Shown here: positions 8,081-14,341 of the stretch, one piece after another | How positions within the stretch are numbered: position 1 is the stretch's first letter | How the letters are laid out: each line of letters begins with the position of its first letter | From: Tepidiforma thermophila | GTDB lineage: Bacteria; Chloroflexota; Dehalococcoidia; Tepidiformales; Tepidiformaceae | DNA length: 64,000 nucleotides | Direction: 5' to 3' | Assembly (NCBI RefSeq): GCF_002563855.1 | Contig: NZ_PDJQ01000001.1 | Span: forward strand, 1,178,001-1,242,000 | Made by a program: the position numbers and the translations under genes | The notes under the pieces: generated by a model | Seen by the model: the letters and a program-made list of their open reading frames with translations, nothing else | Database searches by the model: none | What the model was told of the DNA's origin: nothing

Positions 8081-9135
8081 CGCTGCGCACTCCCCTCCGT
8101 TCGTCGTCGATACAGCGGCTTCGCCGCCACCAGCAGCCGCGCACCGCCCGCTGCGAGCGCTGCCCCGGGGTAGGCTGCCGCCGCCTCAATGATCGCCAGC
8201 CCCGCCGCCCCCTTCAATCCCCACGCCTGGAGGCACGACCGCACCTCGCCGACCCTCCGCCCCGCTTCGTCTGTCACCGCCGTCCCGGGCACCGCCGGCG
8301 GCCCTTCCAGCAGGAACGCCGCGAGGATCCGTCCCTCTCGCCCGCCAGGGATGCCGAGCAGCACGTCGAGGTCCGCCTCCGCCGGCGAAAGCCCCGGCTC
8401 AAGGTCCGGCGTCCAGGCAGGGATGCATGCCTCCACCCGCGCGACCTCCAGCGCCTCCGCACCCGCCAGCGCCACCCCCGCCGAGCGCAGCGTCCCCAGC
8501 AGGTGGCTGCCCACCGCCGGCGCCACCACCAGCTCGAAGCCGCCCTCCCCCGTATCGCTCGTCCGCACCGCCAGCGCCCGGAAGCCGTGGAACTCGAATG
8601 CCGCGCAGTGCAGCGGGCCGAGCCGCCCCGGCAGCGCCTCCGCCACGAACCGGGCCATGCACTGCCCCGCCGCCGGCCCGGCCACCCCGATCGTGCAGGT
8701 CGTCTCCGTCCGGTCGTCCACCCGCACCTCAAAGCCGTCGCCGATCGCCCCCCGCAGCTTCTCGCCGAGGACGCCCCGCCGTTCCGGCTCGCCGCTCACG
8801 AGATACGCCGCGCCGCCCGTCCGCGCCGCCAGCACGAGGTCCGCGATGTTCCCCTCGCCGTCGAGCACGGCGAACCGCCCTGCCCGCCCCTCTTCCAGCT
8901 CCTCCACCGGCCCGGCGAGCGCCCCCTTCAGCACATCCAGCGCATCCGGGCCCGATACGAGGAAGCGGCTCCGCGCGCTCCGGTCGAACGCCGCCGCCGA
9001 CTCCCGCAGCGCCCGGTACTCTCCCTCCGGGTCGCCGTACGCCAGCGGCACCTCCCAGCCCCGCCGCACCCCCAGCCTCGCCCCGAAGGCAACGTGCGTC
9101 TCCCGCAGCGCCAGCCGCATCACTCCGCCGCTCAT
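8074..9135 (-). CDS. Aminomethyltransferase (GcvT)-like folate-binding protein
   Basis: 353 residues with the overall pattern of the GcvT/YgfZ superfamily: an N-terminal YRALRESAAAFDRSARSRFLVSGPDAL, a central TCTIGVAGPAAG, and EALEVARVEACIPAW, which resembles the conserved glycine-cleavage T segment before its C-terminal barrel. These proteins bind tetrahydrofolate and move one-carbon units or assist Fe-S enzymes. No gcvH or gcvP gene is nearby, so it is unlikely to be the true T protein. It overlaps the upstream hydrolase gene by four nt and the downstream gene by seven, forming a tight operon. A demethylase or YgfZ-like role is possible. Confidence 0.75.
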   Translation of the reverse strand: MSGGVMRLALRETHVAFGARLGVRRGWEVPLAYGDPEGEYRALRESAAAFDRSARSRFLVSGPDALDVLKGALAGPVEELEEGRAGRFAVLDGEGNIADLVLAARTGGAAYLVSGEPERRGVLGEKLRGAIGDGFEVRVDDRTETTCTIGVAGPAAGQCMARFVAEALPGRLGPLHCAAFEFHGFRALAVRTSDTGEGGFELVVAPAVGSHLLGTLRSAGVALAGAEALEVARVEACIPAWTPDLEPGLSPAEADLDVLLGIPGGREGRILAAFLLEGPPAVPGTAVTDEAGRRVGEVRSCLQAWGLKGAAGLAIIEAAAAYPGAALAAGGARLLVAAKPLYRRRTEGSAQRW

Positions 9136-9995
9136 GCCGGCACGAACGTCCGACGGCCGTCCCGCTCAATCAGCCGCCCCGTCCCGGGGAAGGGGTTGTG
9201 CACGCAGATGAGCAGCGCGTTCTCCCGCAGCGCCCGTTCGGCCAGCTTCTTCTTCGATTCGAGCGACATCAGCGGCAGGATGTCGAATGCCGCGATCCAC
9301 GCCGGCCGCTCGATCTGCACCGCGTGGTGCACCAGGTCTCCGGTGTAGATCGCCGTCTCCCCCGCCGAGCTGAGGACAATTGACGCGTGGTCCGCCGTGT
9401 GGCCCGGCGTCGGCCAGTACGTCACCCCCGGGATGAGCTCCGTTTCCCCCTCCACCAGCTCCAGCTGCCCCGACTCCGCCAGCGGCGCGAAGTTCTCCTC
9501 GAAGTACGTCCCGCGCGTCCGCTCGTTCGGGTGCATCGCCGCCTCGAACTCCCCCGCCTGGATGATGTACCGCGCCCGCCGAAATGTCGGCACCAGCCGC
9601 CCGTCCTCGGCCCGCCGCGTGTTCCACCCGCAGTGGTCGGCGTGCAGGTGCGTGTTCGCCACCACCGTGATGTCCTCCGGCCCCAGCCCGAGCGCCCGCA
9701 GCCCCTCGAGCAGCCGCCCGTACTCTCCCGGGAACCCGCGCTCCCGGGGCGTGCCCTGCACCTTGTCCCCCATCCCGGTATCGACCAGCAGCACCTCGTC
9801 CCCGCTCCGCACCACAATGCAGTTCAGCGAGAGCTTCATCCGGTGCTCCCGGTCGATGTTCTCCGGCCCGATGATCGGCTCCCACATAACCCGCGGCACC
9901 AGCCCCATCACCGCCCCTGCGTCCAGCTTGATGTAGCCGTCGCAAATCACGGCAATATCGAGATTGCCCACGCGGTAGCGGACCGGCTGCTCCAT
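9132..9995 (-). CDS. Metallo-beta-lactamase-fold hydrolase
   Basis: Cytoplasmic zinc-dependent hydrolase. The HxHxDH metal motif is present in NTHLHADHCGWN, followed by PTPGHTADH (third-metal-site His) and YTGDLVHH. The layout, with a long insert after LVDTG and a late GDLVHH, is like the lactonase/aryl-hydrolase branch of the family; no substrate can be inferred. The frame is open further upstream to 10073, but that part is low-complexity; ATG 9995 is chosen because TATCGT lies seven nt before it and the family pattern starts there. First gene of the operon with the GcvT-like and Nudix-like genes (ATGA overlap at 9132-9135). Confidence 0.85.
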   Translation of the reverse strand: MEQPVRYRVGNLDIAVICDGYIKLDAGAVMGLVPRVMWEPIIGPENIDREHRMKLSLNCIVVRSGDEVLLVDTGMGDKVQGTPRERGFPGEYGRLLEGLRALGLGPEDITVVANTHLHADHCGWNTRRAEDGRLVPTFRRARYIIQAGEFEAAMHPNERTRGTYFEENFAPLAESGQLELVEGETELIPGVTYWPTPGHTADHASIVLSSAGETAIYTGDLVHHAVQIERPAWIAAFDILPLMSLESKKKLAERALRENALLICVHNPFPGTGRLIERDGRRTFVPA

Positions 9996-10065: not shown

Positions 10066-10090
10066 AGCTGCAAACCGTTGCAGCTAAACT
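10066..10090 (+). promoter_or_regulatory. Palindromic operator overlapping the promoter of the metal-uptake operon
   Basis: AGCTGCAA-ACCG-TTGCAGCT (10066-10085) is a perfect dyad with 8-bp arms and a 4-bp centre. It runs directly into TAAACT (10085-10090), a good -10 candidate about 31 nt upstream of ATG 10122, so a bound repressor would occlude the promoter spacer. A metal-responsive repressor is the natural candidate; the TTGCA half-site recalls some Fur-family (Nur-type) boxes, but this is inference. Confidence 0.5.
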
Positions 10091-10121
10091 ACGGGAAGTA
10101 AGCAGGGAACAGGGGGAGACC

Positions 10122-10784
10122 ATGCCGCTCTTTTTGCTCCACGCCGCCGACGGATTCTTCTCCGTCCCGGTCAGCCTCGTCTTCTGGGCCATCACCGTCG
10201 CCGCGCTCGCCATCTCCCTCAAGCGCGCCGGCGAACGCCTCGACGAGCGCGCCATCCCGCTCATGGGCGTCATGGCCGCCTTCATCTTCGCCGGGCAGAT
10301 GTTCAACTTCCAGATTCCCGGTGGCACGTCCGGCCACCTCCTCGGCGGAGTCCTCGCCGGTATCCTCCTCGGCCCCTACGCCGGCACCGTCGTCATGGCC
10401 TGCGTGATCGCCGTCCAGGCAATCGTTTTCCAGGACGGCGGGCTCGTCGTCCTCGGCGCCAACATCTTCAACATGGGCATCATCGGCACCATGGGCGGCT
10501 ACTGGGTCTACCGCGCCATCGCCGGCGCCCTCGGCGGAGAAGAGAAGGGCCGCCTCCCGGCTGCCGCCGTCGCCGCCTGGCTCTCGGTCGTCACCGCCGC
10601 CGTCGTCGCATCCTTCCAGCTCGCCCTCTCCGACACCACCTCCCTCGGCGCCGCCCTCGTCGCCATGGTCGGCTGGCACGTCCTCATCGGCATCGGCGAG
10701 GCCATCATCACCGTCGGCGCCCTCGGCTTCATCCGGGTCGCGCGCGCCGACCTCCTCACCCTCCGCGAAGCATCCCCCGCCTGA
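10122..10784 (+). CDS. cbiM: Cobalt/nickel ECF transporter substrate-binding membrane protein, CbiM/NikM type
   Basis: Core S-component of an energy-coupling-factor transporter importing Co2+ or Ni2+. The N-terminal LHAADGF corresponds to the metal-binding His-x-x-(D/E)-G-F loop of CbiM/NikM, and GQMFNFQIPGGTSGHLLGG with ANIFNMGIIG are signature segments. About seven membrane helices are expected in its 220 residues. ATG 10122 follows AGGGGGAG with good spacing and begins the family pattern; the frame is open far upstream but that is shadow. It is followed by PDGLE, CbiQ and CbiO genes. Which metal is carried cannot be decided. Confidence 0.92.
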   Translation: MPLFLLHAADGFFSVPVSLVFWAITVAALAISLKRAGERLDERAIPLMGVMAAFIFAGQMFNFQIPGGTSGHLLGGVLAGILLGPYAGTVVMACVIAVQAIVFQDGGLVVLGANIFNMGIIGTMGGYWVYRAIAGALGGEEKGRLPAAAVAAWLSVVTAAVVASFQLALSDTTSLGAALVAMVGWHVLIGIGEAIITVGALGFIRVARADLLTLREASPA

Positions 10785-10799
10785 CAGGGAGCACCCGCA

Positions 10800-11138
10800 A
10801 TGACCGCTGCAGCACCCTTCGAACGTTCGTTCCTCCGCCGCTGGGGCTGGGCCATCGCCGGCCTCGTCATCGCCGCCCTCGTGGTCATCTTCCTCGCCCC
10901 TACCGCCTCCTCCGACCCCGACGGCCTCGACCGCGTCGCCGAGGACAAGGAGTTCGTCGACAAGGCCAAAGACCCGCCCTACGAATGGCTTACCGACTAC
11001 TCCATCCCCGGCGTCAACAATGAGTGGGCCAGCGTCGTCCTCGCCGGCCTCATCGGCGTCGGCATCGTCTTTGTCGTCACCGTCGGTCTCGGCGCAGCAG
11101 TCCGCGCTGCGAAGAAGAACAGGGGGAGCTCCGCCTGA
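10800..11138 (+). CDS. PDGLE-domain (CbiN-like) small membrane protein of the metal transporter
   Basis: 112 residues with two hydrophobic helices (about 13-31 and 75-98) flanking an external loop that contains SSDPDGLDRVAED, the PDGLE motif. PDGLE proteins take the place of CbiN in many NikM/CbiM systems. It lies 15 nt after cbiM, and its stop codon overlaps the proposed CTG start of cbiQ. Confidence 0.88.
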   Translation: MTAAAPFERSFLRRWGWAIAGLVIAALVVIFLAPTASSDPDGLDRVAEDKEFVDKAKDPPYEWLTDYSIPGVNNEWASVVLAGLIGVGIVFVVTVGLGAAVRAAKKNRGSSA

Positions 11139-11929
11139 ACCTCGACCGCTACGTCCCGCGCGAGAGCCCGCTCCACCGCGCCGACGCCCGGCTCAAGTTC
11201 CTGCTCGTCATCGCCTTCATCCTTTCGGTGAGCCTCCTCCCCGAGGGCGCCTTCCTCGCGCTCGCTGCAGCCTGGGCCCTCCTCTGCGCCGTCTCGCTCG
11301 TCGCCCGCATCGGCCCCCGGCCCATGGTCCGCGGCGCCTTCATCGCCCTCCCCTTCGCCTTCGCCGCAGTGCCTCTAATCTTCACCCGGCCCGGCAACCC
11401 CCTCGGTACCATCGACCTCGGCCTCTTCAGCCTCACCATCAGCGGCGAAGGCCTCGTCGCCTTCGCCACCATCCTGCTCAAAAGCTGGGTCTCCGTGCAG
11501 TCGGCCGCACTCCTCGTCTTCACCACCCAGTTTCACGACCTCCTCGAAGGTCTCGAGCGGCTCCGCCTTCCCCGCCTTATGGTCGCCATCATCTCCCTCA
11601 TGTACCGTTACCTCGCTGTGCTTACCGGAGAGGCCTCCCGCATGCTCCGCGCCCGCGCCTCCCGCGCCGCCGTGCCGCCCGGCGCCAGTGCACCCGGCTG
11701 GCGCTGGCAGGCCCGCGTCGTCGGCAACATGGTCGGCGCCCTCTTCATCCGCGCCTACGAACGGAGCGAACGCGTCTACGTCGCCATGCAGTCGCGCGGC
11801 TACGCCGGCCACCTCCGCCACCTCCACGACCGCCCCTTCCCCAGGCCCCAGCTCGCCCTCCTCGCGGCCGTCGTCGCCCTTCTCGTGGCCTTCGAACTTA
11901 GCGCCCATACCTGGGTTCCGCGCGCATGA
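11135..11929 (+). CDS. cbiQ: Energy-coupling factor transporter transmembrane protein CbiQ (probable CTG start)
   Basis: T-component that couples the ATPase to CbiM. The family pattern begins LDRYVPRESPLHRADARLKF and includes the two Ala-Arg-Gly-type coupling segments (MLRARASR and AMQSRGYAG). The frame extends up to 11024, but that portion is Arg-rich shadow of the PDGLE gene. No ATG, GTG or TTG lies at the family start; CTG 11135 is six nt after AGGGGGAG and overlaps the previous stop as CTGA, so a CTG start is likely. Ends with ATGA overlap into cbiO. Confidence 0.88.
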   Translation: MNLDRYVPRESPLHRADARLKFLLVIAFILSVSLLPEGAFLALAAAWALLCAVSLVARIGPRPMVRGAFIALPFAFAAVPLIFTRPGNPLGTIDLGLFSLTISGEGLVAFATILLKSWVSVQSAALLVFTTQFHDLLEGLERLRLPRLMVAIISLMYRYLAVLTGEASRMLRARASRAAVPPGASAPGWRWQARVVGNMVGALFIRAYERSERVYVAMQSRGYAGHLRHLHDRPFPRPQLALLAAVVALLVAFELSAHTWVPRA

Positions 11930-12678
11930 CGCTCGAAGCGCCTGCCTCGCCCCAGTCGCCGGCCGCGGCGCCCCTCGTCCTCGTCGAAGGGCTCGTCTTC
12001 CGCTACCCCAACGGCCACCAGGCCCTCCACGGCATCGACCTCCGCATCGACCCCGGCGAAAAAATCGCCCTCATCGGCCCCAACGGCGCCGGCAAGAGCA
12101 CCCTCATGCTCCACCTTAACGGCATCCACCTCCCCTCTGAAGGCCGCGTCGTCGTCAACGGCCTCCCCGTCTGCCGCGAACACCTCGGCCGCATCCGCGC
12201 CATGGTCGGCCTCGTCTTCCAGGACCCCGACGACCAGCTCTTCAGCCCGACCGTCTACGACGATGTCGCCTTCGGCCCCATCCACATGGGCCTCTCAAAA
12301 GAAGAGGTCGACGCCCGCGTCGCACGCGCCCTCGTTGCCGTCGGCCTCGCCGGCTTCGAACGCCGCCAGCCCTTCCACCTCTCCATCGGCCAGCGAAAGC
12401 GCGCCGCCCTCGCCACCGTTCTTTCCATGTCCCCCTCGCTCCTCGTCCTCGATGAGCCCTCCGCCGGTCTCGACCCCCGCGGCCGCCGCGAACTCATCAC
12501 CCTGCTCCGCGGCCTCGAACAGACCCTCCTCGTGAGCACCCACGACATGCGCCTCGTCGCCGAAGTCTTCCCCCGCACCGTCATCCTCGACGAGGGCCGC
12601 ATCGTCGCCGACGGCCCAACGGACCGCCTCCTCACCGACGCCCCCCTCCTCGAAGCCCACGGGCTCGAAATGCCCTGA
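11926..12678 (+). CDS. cbiO: Energy-coupling factor transporter ATP-binding protein CbiO
   Basis: 250-residue ABC ATPase powering Co/Ni uptake. Walker A GPNGAGKST (about residues 50-58), Q-loop VFQDPDDQLF, signature LSIGQRKR, Walker B LLVLDEPSAGLD and H-loop STHD are all intact. VFQDPDDQLFSPTVYDDVAFGP is typical of ECF ATPases. Only one ATPase gene is present, so it probably works as a homodimer, as in CbiMNQO. It is the last gene of the operon. Confidence 0.95.
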   Translation: MTLEAPASPQSPAAAPLVLVEGLVFRYPNGHQALHGIDLRIDPGEKIALIGPNGAGKSTLMLHLNGIHLPSEGRVVVNGLPVCREHLGRIRAMVGLVFQDPDDQLFSPTVYDDVAFGPIHMGLSKEEVDARVARALVAVGLAGFERRQPFHLSIGQRKRAALATVLSMSPSLLVLDEPSAGLDPRGRRELITLLRGLEQTLLVSTHDMRLVAEVFPRTVILDEGRIVADGPTDRLLTDAPLLEAHGLEMP

Positions 12679-12731: not shown

Positions 12732-13568
12732 GTGAACACCGCCGACTTCGCCGCCTTCGAAGCCGCCATCCGCGGCGCCGACCACGAGGTGGACCTGTTC
12801 ACCGCTGCCATGGTGATCGCCCGCCTCGGCGGCCATGAGGTCGACCCCCACCGCGCCGCCCGCACCCTCGACCTCATCGCTGAGAACGTCCTCGCCGAAG
12901 CCGGCGAATCCCCCTCCCGCGACGCTCTCGCCCACGCCATCGACCACCAGCTCTTCACCGTCGAAGGCTTCCACGGCAGCTTCGATGACTACGACAATCC
13001 CGAAAACTCCTACCTTGACCGCGTCATCGAGCGCCGCCGCGGCATCCCCATCACCCTCTCCCTCGTCTACCTCGAAATCGCCCAGCGCGTCGGCCTCCCC
13101 GCCGATGGCGTTGGCTTCCCCGGTCACTTCATCGTCCGCTACGGTGAACCCGGCGCGTACACCTACCTCGACCCCTTCCAGCAGGGCGTCCGCCTCGACG
13201 AACAAGAACTCCTCGCCATGCTCCGCGGCCTCGACCTCGGCGGCGCCCGTCCCGAAACCTTTCTCGCCGCCGTCACCCGCCGCCAGGTGCTCCAGCGCAT
13301 GCTCAACAACCTCCACGTCGCGTTCCGTAACCGCCGCGACATCCAGCGCTGGCACGATACGATCGAACTCCAACTCCGCCTCGCGCCCTGGAACGTCAGC
13401 CTTATCGGCGAGCGCGGCATGCTCCGTTACCGCCTCGGCCGCCTCGAGGAGGCGCTCCCCGACCTCGAGACCTACGTCACCGCCAGCGAAACCGGCGCCA
13501 GCCCGGGCGCCATCCGCCTCCTCGACCAGCTCCGAATCCGCTACCGCAACATGGGGGAATCGCGATGA
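12732..13568 (+). CDS. SirB1-family transglutaminase-like protein with TPR-like C-terminus
   Basis: 278 residues. The conserved core RRRGIPITLSLVYLEIAQRVGLP followed by GVGFPGHFIVRY is typical of the SirB1 N-terminal/transglutaminase-like family; the C-terminal third (LIGERGMLRYRLGRLEEALPDLETYV) looks like a tetratricopeptide repeat. The family is widespread but functionally unclear. The GTG start is set by the TATACT promoter just upstream. It heads a group in which each gene overlaps the next by four nt: Crp/Fnr regulator, GDPD-like protein and HemW. Confidence 0.85.
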   Translation: MNTADFAAFEAAIRGADHEVDLFTAAMVIARLGGHEVDPHRAARTLDLIAENVLAEAGESPSRDALAHAIDHQLFTVEGFHGSFDDYDNPENSYLDRVIERRRGIPITLSLVYLEIAQRVGLPADGVGFPGHFIVRYGEPGAYTYLDPFQQGVRLDEQELLAMLRGLDLGGARPETFLAAVTRRQVLQRMLNNLHVAFRNRRDIQRWHDTIELQLRLAPWNVSLIGERGMLRYRLGRLEEALPDLETYVTASETGASPGAIRLLDQLRIRYRNMGESR

Positions 13569-14341
13569 CCATCGAAACGCCTGCTCGCCACAGCCAGCCC
13601 CGCGGACGCCAGGCTCTCCAGCGCTCCATCGCCTGGTACCTCCGCCAGCTCTCCCGCGTGCTCAACGTCCTCACCGACGAAGAGCTCGAACGGCTCGTCC
13701 CCCACCTCACCGAACGCCGCTTCAAGCCGCGCCAGGTCATCTTCGCCACCGGCGACCCCGCCGAACGCGTTTACCTCATCCTCAAAGGGCGCGTCAAGAT
13801 CTACCAGGTCGCCGATAACGGCAAGGAGATCATCCTCGATGTCGCCGGCAAGGGTGACGTCGTCGGCGATATGGCCATCGTCGAAGACGGCGAGCGCACC
13901 GCCACCGCCCAGGCCATCGACGAAACCATCGCCGTCTCCATCTCATGGGAAGACTTCTCCCACCTCCTCCAGCAGTCGCCCCGCCTCGGCATGGCGATGA
14001 TGGAGCTCATGGCCCGCCGCCTCGCCGGCATGCAGCGCACCTTCATGAACATCGTCTCCAAGCCCGTCTCGGCCCGCCTCGCCGATACCCTCCTCTCCCG
14101 CGCCGAAGATGGCATCATCCGCCTCGGCCTCACTCACCAGGAGCTCGCACAAACCATCGGCACCAGCCGCGAGACCGTCACCGCCCTCCTCTCCCGCTTC
14201 ACCACCCTCGGCGCCATCGCACCCATCCCCGACGGCTACCGCATCCTCGACGAAGACCTCCTCGATGACATCGCCGCCGGCGAGGTCCCCGTCTCCCCCC
14301 GGCATCCTGTGAACACACCGGCCAGTACCATGGCAGGGTGA
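13565..14341 (+). CDS. Crp/Fnr-family transcriptional regulator
   Basis: 258 residues with an N-terminal cyclic-nucleotide-binding-type barrel (about 45-155: VIFATGDPAERVYLILKGRVKIY, then GDVVGDMAIVEDGERTATAQA) and a C-terminal winged helix (LTHQELAQTIGTSRETVTALLSRF). No Cys cluster of the FNR type is present near the N-terminus, so an iron-sulphur redox sensor is unlikely; the ligand is unknown. It overlaps the SirB1-like gene and the GDPD-like gene by four nt each. Confidence 0.9.
   Translation: MTIETPARHSQPRGRQALQRSIAWYLRQLSRVLNVLTDEELERLVPHLTERRFKPRQVIFATGDPAERVYLILKGRVKIYQVADNGKEIILDVAGKGDVVGDMAIVEDGERTATAQAIDETIAVSISWEDFSHLLQQSPRLGMAMMELMARRLAGMQRTFMNIVSKPVSARLADTLLSRAEDGIIRLGLTHQELAQTIGTSRETVTALLSRFTTLGAIAPIPDGYRILDEDLLDDIAAGEVPVSPRHPVNTPASTMAG

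Follow-up and report, generated by a model that had tools for sequence, protein, structure and literature searches.

What switches the importer operon cbiM-PDGLE-cbiQ-cbiO of Tepidiforma thermophila on and off, and in response to which metal? The question arises from a stretch of 64,000 nucleotides (the window; G000:C1:1178001-1242000 of the organism's own genome, G000), in which a perfect 8-4-8 dyad, AGCTGCAA-ACCG-TTGCAGCT, can be read directly in the sequence upstream of cbiM. The first-pass annotation had pointed to this palindrome and to a gap of 31 nt between the hexamer TAAACT and the cbiM ATG (10122), both of which are confirmed in the sequence. It had further suggested that TAAACT ends a promoter, that no riboswitch is present and that a metal-sensing repressor is the likely control.

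Table 1. Features of the dyad and the surrounding gene row (positions in the window; genes are from a mechanical listing of open reading frames, with predicted starts).
Feature	Position	Strand	Basis
MBL-fold hydrolase, divergent	9132..9995	-	domain match
Proposed operator, dyad AGCTGCAA-ACCG-TTGCAGCT	10066..10085	.	sequence and conservation
Conserved core, CTGCAA-ACCG-TTGCAG	10068..10083	.	2 mismatches against TTGCAA-N4-TTGCAA
TAAACT, −10-like, abuts the dyad (promoter inferred)	10085..10090	+	sequence; recurrence in relatives
AGGGGGAG, likely Shine-Dalgarno sequence of cbiM	10111..10118	+	sequence
cbiM, substrate-specific S component (PF01891)	10122..10784	+	domain match
PDGLE-domain / CbiN-like subunit	10800..11138	+	domain match
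cbiQ, T component (start not fixed)	11117..11929	+	domain match
cbiO, ATPase	11926..12678	+	domain match
Crp/Fnr-type regulator, end of gene row	13565..14341	+	domain match

The dyad and the hexamer share the T at 10085, and in the genus as well as in L020 the dyad is again followed immediately, on its 3′ side, by TA(A/G)ACT or a close variant. A sigma-70 consensus scan, on the other hand, found no promoter at the TAAACT/dyad position. TAAACT is a −10 element by resemblance only, and the position of the promoter is one that we infer. The absence of a riboswitch agrees with a scan of the whole window against Rfam, in which no family reached its gathering threshold. Downstream, the gene of a transglutaminase-like protein stands between cbiO and the gene of the Crp/Fnr-type regulator.

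As a bare palindrome the dyad is unremarkable: three perfect 8-4-8 palindromes are found in the window (71% GC) against 2.8 expected, which is what one would expect of a palindrome that arose by chance or of a local similarity in sequence that serves no function. The cbiM dyad is the only one of them with arms of 50% GC or less (expected 0.1), and at up to three mismatches it has a single match in the window (mean of shuffles 0.17). Its significance comes from other genomes. Of 61 relatives searched with PF01891, 24 gave matches, at 26 loci in all. At the level of the family, TTGCAA-N4-TTGCAA (hereafter the box) precedes cbiM with up to three mismatches in all 17 oriented loci and with up to two in 16 (six exact, five with one mismatch, five with two, one with three), always at a distance of no more than about 115 bases before the matched CbiM domain. 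Between the half-sites the four bases differ from locus to locus, for which reason a LacI-type palindrome with central CG was rejected, and much of the flanks varies too. At the level of the class a FUR gene often stands directly before cbiM, and there the box precedes the FUR gene (exact in G038, G048 and G043, with two mismatches in G057); in G053 a box with one mismatch lies directly upstream of cbiM. Counting sites before an adjacent fur, the box is present at 22 of the 26 loci. The four loci lacking it are both copies of G040, the copy of G044 and the second copy of G043, a genome in which the boxed cbiM adjoins fur and the unboxed one adjoins cbiC.

A second set of loci was obtained by scanning named genomes with a cbiM alignment and examining 700 bases upstream of each match; a few of its genomes are shared with the first set (e.g., L222, L223, L224). 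Among these 80 loci the N4 box occurs with up to two mismatches at 52, compared with 2 loci for N2, 5 for N3, 5 for N5, 5 for N6, 7 for N7 and 3 for N8, and with 4 loci when the N4 pattern is sought in a control stretch inside or downstream of the gene. All 52 boxed loci fall among the 68 titled Chloroflexota or one of its classes (one of the 68 has just 13 bases of upstream sequence), and none of the 12 cbiM loci from elsewhere (Microcystis, Omnitrophota, Elusimicrobia, Poribacteria, an archaeon) has a box. In an unbiased ranking of all 6-N-6 palindromes TTGCAA-N4 came first, with 21 exact sites and 39 with at most one mismatch among 78 loci. The 52 sites yield the extended consensus TTATTGCAA-N4-TTGCAATAA.

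Exact N4 sites number 16 in the 61 genomes, one in each genome concerned, against one in the control; exact N5 sites are at background (7, control 7), so the N5 spacing of the Nur box was rejected. Fifteen of the 16 exact N4 sites precede cbiM (6), fur-cbiM (3), fur (1), fur-znuA (1), znuA (3) or an FmdE-family gene (1). Near the last of these (G053:C68:2944; L145/L183), at a distance of a few kb, stands a cbiM with a box of its own, and the remaining exact site, in G041 (L136/L181), is flanked by an MFS transporter gene and a selA-like gene. A chance origin of the cbiM dyad is hardly credible in the face of these results: conservation is specific to one spacing over much of the phylum while flanks and central bases are free to change, and both the enrichment of exact N4 sites over the control and the unbiased ranking contradict it. 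The first-pass annotation had named two observations that would speak against a regulatory role, namely absence of the palindrome before orthologous cbiM genes and its being common throughout the genome. The site is present before those genes in both sets of loci, and the core TGCAA-N4-TTGCA occurs only three times in the 2.74 Mb single-contig genome.

Across 38 family genomes this degenerate core shows no genome-wide enrichment (50 sites, 82 in the reversed control), so single extra matches outside the named targets are not callable as targets. By hand count, 15 of the 50 sites precede cbiM, six a ZnuA-like gene, two sodF, one a nikA-like gene, one a NicO-like gene and three the gene of an unknown protein, while one stands shortly after furA (G010); the other 21 are probably chance.

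Which protein reads the box? The genome encodes three FUR proteins. FurA, encoded about 38 kb ahead of the window at G000:C1:1139818-1140165, has as its best PDB match Nur of Streptomyces coelicolor, 3EYY. The lead over the next structure is 83.3 to 80.3 bits with the single sequence and 144.4 to 135.3 bits with a profile. The closest solved relative of FurB is the Fur of 6D57/4ETS, which we take to be the Campylobacter protein, and that of FurC is the peroxide regulator 2FE3. At 48 of the 80 loci a FUR gene lies within 1 kb upstream of cbiM, and in every case FurA is a better match to its product than FurB and FurC are. The box is present at 42 of these 48 loci (before a co-directional fur at 37, between divergent fur and cbiM at 5) and missing from six; among the 32 loci without fur it is found at 10. 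In a tree of 45 proteins, which included 16 of the 48 cbiM-linked FURs, a weakly supported branch (76/84) separates Nur, FurA, the FURs linked to cbiM and some C-type FURs from FurB and from the reference sequences for Fur and PerR. The cbiM-adjacent FUR of G040, a class-level genome without a box, groups with the latter. FurA is thus tied to the dyad, as its candidate reader, by linkage and a shared box more than by the tree. The upstream regions of furA in the family contain no box, so autoregulation of furA is ruled out there; several class-level furs that adjoin cbiM do have one.

Alternatively, the Crp/Fnr-type protein encoded at the end of the gene row might bind the dyad. Proteins of this type bind palindromes of similar size, and the gene keeps its place with the cbi operon in six of nine relatives examined (the stretch from G010 ended at cbiO). 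However, G018 and G020 retain the dyad while the gene is missing from the stretch examined, and it is a FUR gene that accompanies box and cbiM across the phylum. We consider this protein a highly unlikely regulator of the dyad.

Very probably a metal-sensing repressor of the Fur family docks on the dyad and would thereby switch off metal uptake. The repressor postulated by the first-pass annotation gains support from the conservation of the box before cbiM, from the Fur-family protein nearest to Nur that a check for such regulators brought to light, and from the absence of NikR: its C-terminal domain (PF08753) is missing from all 61 genomes, whereas the same search detected it in 5 of 14 control genomes. 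The likeness of the half-site to Nur boxes rather than NikR sites holds for TTGCAA itself; it does not extend to the spacing, which is N4 here and N5 in Streptomyces Nur.

As to the metal, the generic annotation of CbiM would suit a cobalt importer serving B12 synthesis, with the dyad bound by a cobalt sensor. Against this, CbiC, a marker of corrin synthesis, was found in none of 37 family genomes, the organism's own included, and cobalt for corrin synthesis is therefore probably not needed. Moreover, the cbiM copies that adjoin cbiC in G043 and G044 are ones without a box, and the cobalamin riboswitch of the organism's own genome, the single one found among four loci scanned (36.6 bits; L003:1572-1688 (+), equal to G000:C1:2325668-2325784), precedes a FecCD-type permease, not cbiM. 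Control by cobalt is very improbable.

The FecCD permease gene is divergent from the gene of a NikA-like binding protein, whose promoter region contains the third core site of the genome and which is followed by a NikC-like permease. Among NCBIfam models the binding protein scores best with NikA, at 233 bits, which falls short of the cut-off. Syntenic stretches (three of G004, four of G001) gave no match to nikA or nikC, so this target rests on one genome.

A further candidate target comes from the superoxide dismutases. A nickel enzyme (NiSOD) is encoded in the organism's own genome and in 40 of the 61 genomes. An Fe/Mn enzyme (sodF) like its own is found in four of six genus genomes and in none of 17 other family genomes searched. 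A box stands about 122–124 bases upstream of sodF, with one mismatch in the organism's own genome and in G002, two in G003 and three in G001. About 16 bases further upstream, at about −140 from the matched start, a second and weaker TGCAA-like dyad is seen in G000, G001 and G003 (L211).

Other importers also stand behind the box. ZnuA-like substrate-binding proteins do so in six family genomes (G006, G007, G014, G016, G023, G036), all without cbiM, and at class level in G042 and G056. In four of the six family cases the gene occupies the same MBL-hydrolase locus where others have cbiM, so that the hydrolase is flanked, in other genomes of the family, by either cbiM or a ZnuA-like transporter behind a box. 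At L153, L156, L159 and L164, for example, an MBL-hydrolase/aminomethyltransferase locus has a ZnuA-like ABC importer in place of cbiMNQO. G026, likewise without cbiM, has a weak NicO/NiCoT-like permease behind its box. We read the ZnuA-like and NicO-like cases as replacement of the importer behind one operator. Copies of the box before other metal genes are found at sodF and at the ZnuA-like and NicO-like genes, and at the NikA-like gene in one genome only. Separately, a TGCAA dyad lies in the divergent promoter of an FmdB-like zinc-ribbon gene and the gene of a Pfam-less protein in G001, G003 and G024. It has two mismatches in G001 and G003; in other genus members it is degraded, with three mismatches in the organism's own genome, G004 and G002 and no match at up to three in G005 (loci L206, L205, L203, L204, L207, L208, L150). 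As a target this promoter is doubtful.

Because ZnuA-like proteins sit behind the same box, the operator and its FurA-type regulator could instead serve zinc or manganese, sensed in the manner of Zur or Mur, with CbiM and the ZnuA-like importers both supplying that metal. The best NCBIfam models for the two ZnuA-like proteins scanned are AztC and MntC, zinc/manganese models whose cut-offs are not reached. In alignment FurA has the common Fur ligand set and not the extra histidines of Nur. Nickel is nevertheless favored by the box of sodF, present in a genus that encodes NiSOD as well, by the NicO/NiCoT-like permease of G026, by Nur being nearest to FurA among solved structures, and by CbiM/NikM-type importers being known for Ni and Co (PMC2667541). 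Zinc or manganese sensing is the main rival to nickel, and we regard it as unlikely.

Our preferred reading, which we consider likely, is that the dyad is the operator of FurA, a Nur-like repressor of cbiM-PDGLE-cbiQ-cbiO whose metal is most likely Ni2+. When metal is sufficient, a metal-loaded FurA dimer would bind TTGCAA-N4-TTGCAA, cover the promoter by TAAACT, exclude RNA polymerase and so block transcription of the four genes; when it is scarce, FurA would be released and the ECF importer made. FurA probably also controls the Fe/Mn superoxide dismutase, and perhaps the NikA-like ABC transporter, which would parallel the role of Nur in Streptomyces.

Whether this extends to a general statement about the phylum – that Chloroflexota have a widespread Nur-like nickel regulon of their own, in which the N4 box TTATTGCAA-N4-TTGCAATAA is read by the FurA lineage, unrelated importers are interchanged behind it and sodF has been recruited in one genus – is in our judgment evenly balanced. 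If true, ECF CbiMNQO, ZnuA-type ABC importers and a NicO-like permease would be interchangeable parts, and one genus would have a Streptomyces-like nickel-dependent SOD switch without the small-RNA mechanism of Streptomyces. Box and regulator together would give a large and mostly uncultured phylum a nickel regulon that is open to direct test. CbiM importers of nickel type could be told from those of cobalt type by the box, which would also hint at the metal of the ZnuA-like transporters standing behind it. Within the reach of our searches, the literature contained no description of Nur, or of a nickel regulator, from Chloroflexota. The Chloroflexi collection of RegPrecise 3.0 comprises 30 TF regulogs (PMC3840689), and the available part of PMC2667541 discusses NikR and does not contain the word Nur.

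Several known systems invite comparison. The cbiMNQO operons of cobalt type that are controlled by cobalamin riboswitches encode related ECF importers; they differ in that the cbiM described here has no riboswitch and the family lacks the corrin marker CbiC. NikR, with a fold unrelated to that of the Fur family, likewise represses nickel import, but is absent here. In other taxa its targets include NikMNQO and NiCoT importers (PMC2667541). Closer in protein family are Zur and Mur, which act on importers of the ZnuABC/MntABC type: they too repress metal import, and ZnuA-like genes share the box in some relatives, but the nearest solved relative of FurA is Nur rather than Zur. The half-site of Zur/Mur boxes also differs from TTGCAA.

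The closest parallel is Nur of Streptomyces coelicolor. The half-site TTGCAA is the same, although the Nur box reads tTGCaa-N5-ttGCAA, and FurA is the Fur-family protein most similar to Nur, with weak support in the tree. An alignment to Nur shows His33, His88, His90 and His126 kept in FurA, while His70, His72 and His86 are replaced by Ser, Asp and Ala; these seven we take to be the histidines of the nickel and M sites. Because the spacing differs and the extra nickel histidines are not conserved, we do not file the system as Nur proper. Nur represses sodF and nikABCDE (PMC3919588, PMC7055735). A box before a cbiM-type importer and sodF gives the target pair known for Nur, a parallel drawn from sequence, in a genome that also has NiSOD. 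The Streptomyces sodF 3′ UTR RNA represses sodN through a complementarity of 18–19 nt (PMC3919588); pairing of that kind was not found here, the longest sodF/sodN complementarity in three genomes compared being 9–12 nt. The system differs from Nur, finally, in its main target, which is CbiMNQO here and ZnuA-like or NicO-like permeases elsewhere, and in a regulator that in Chloroflexota often shares one operon with cbiM.
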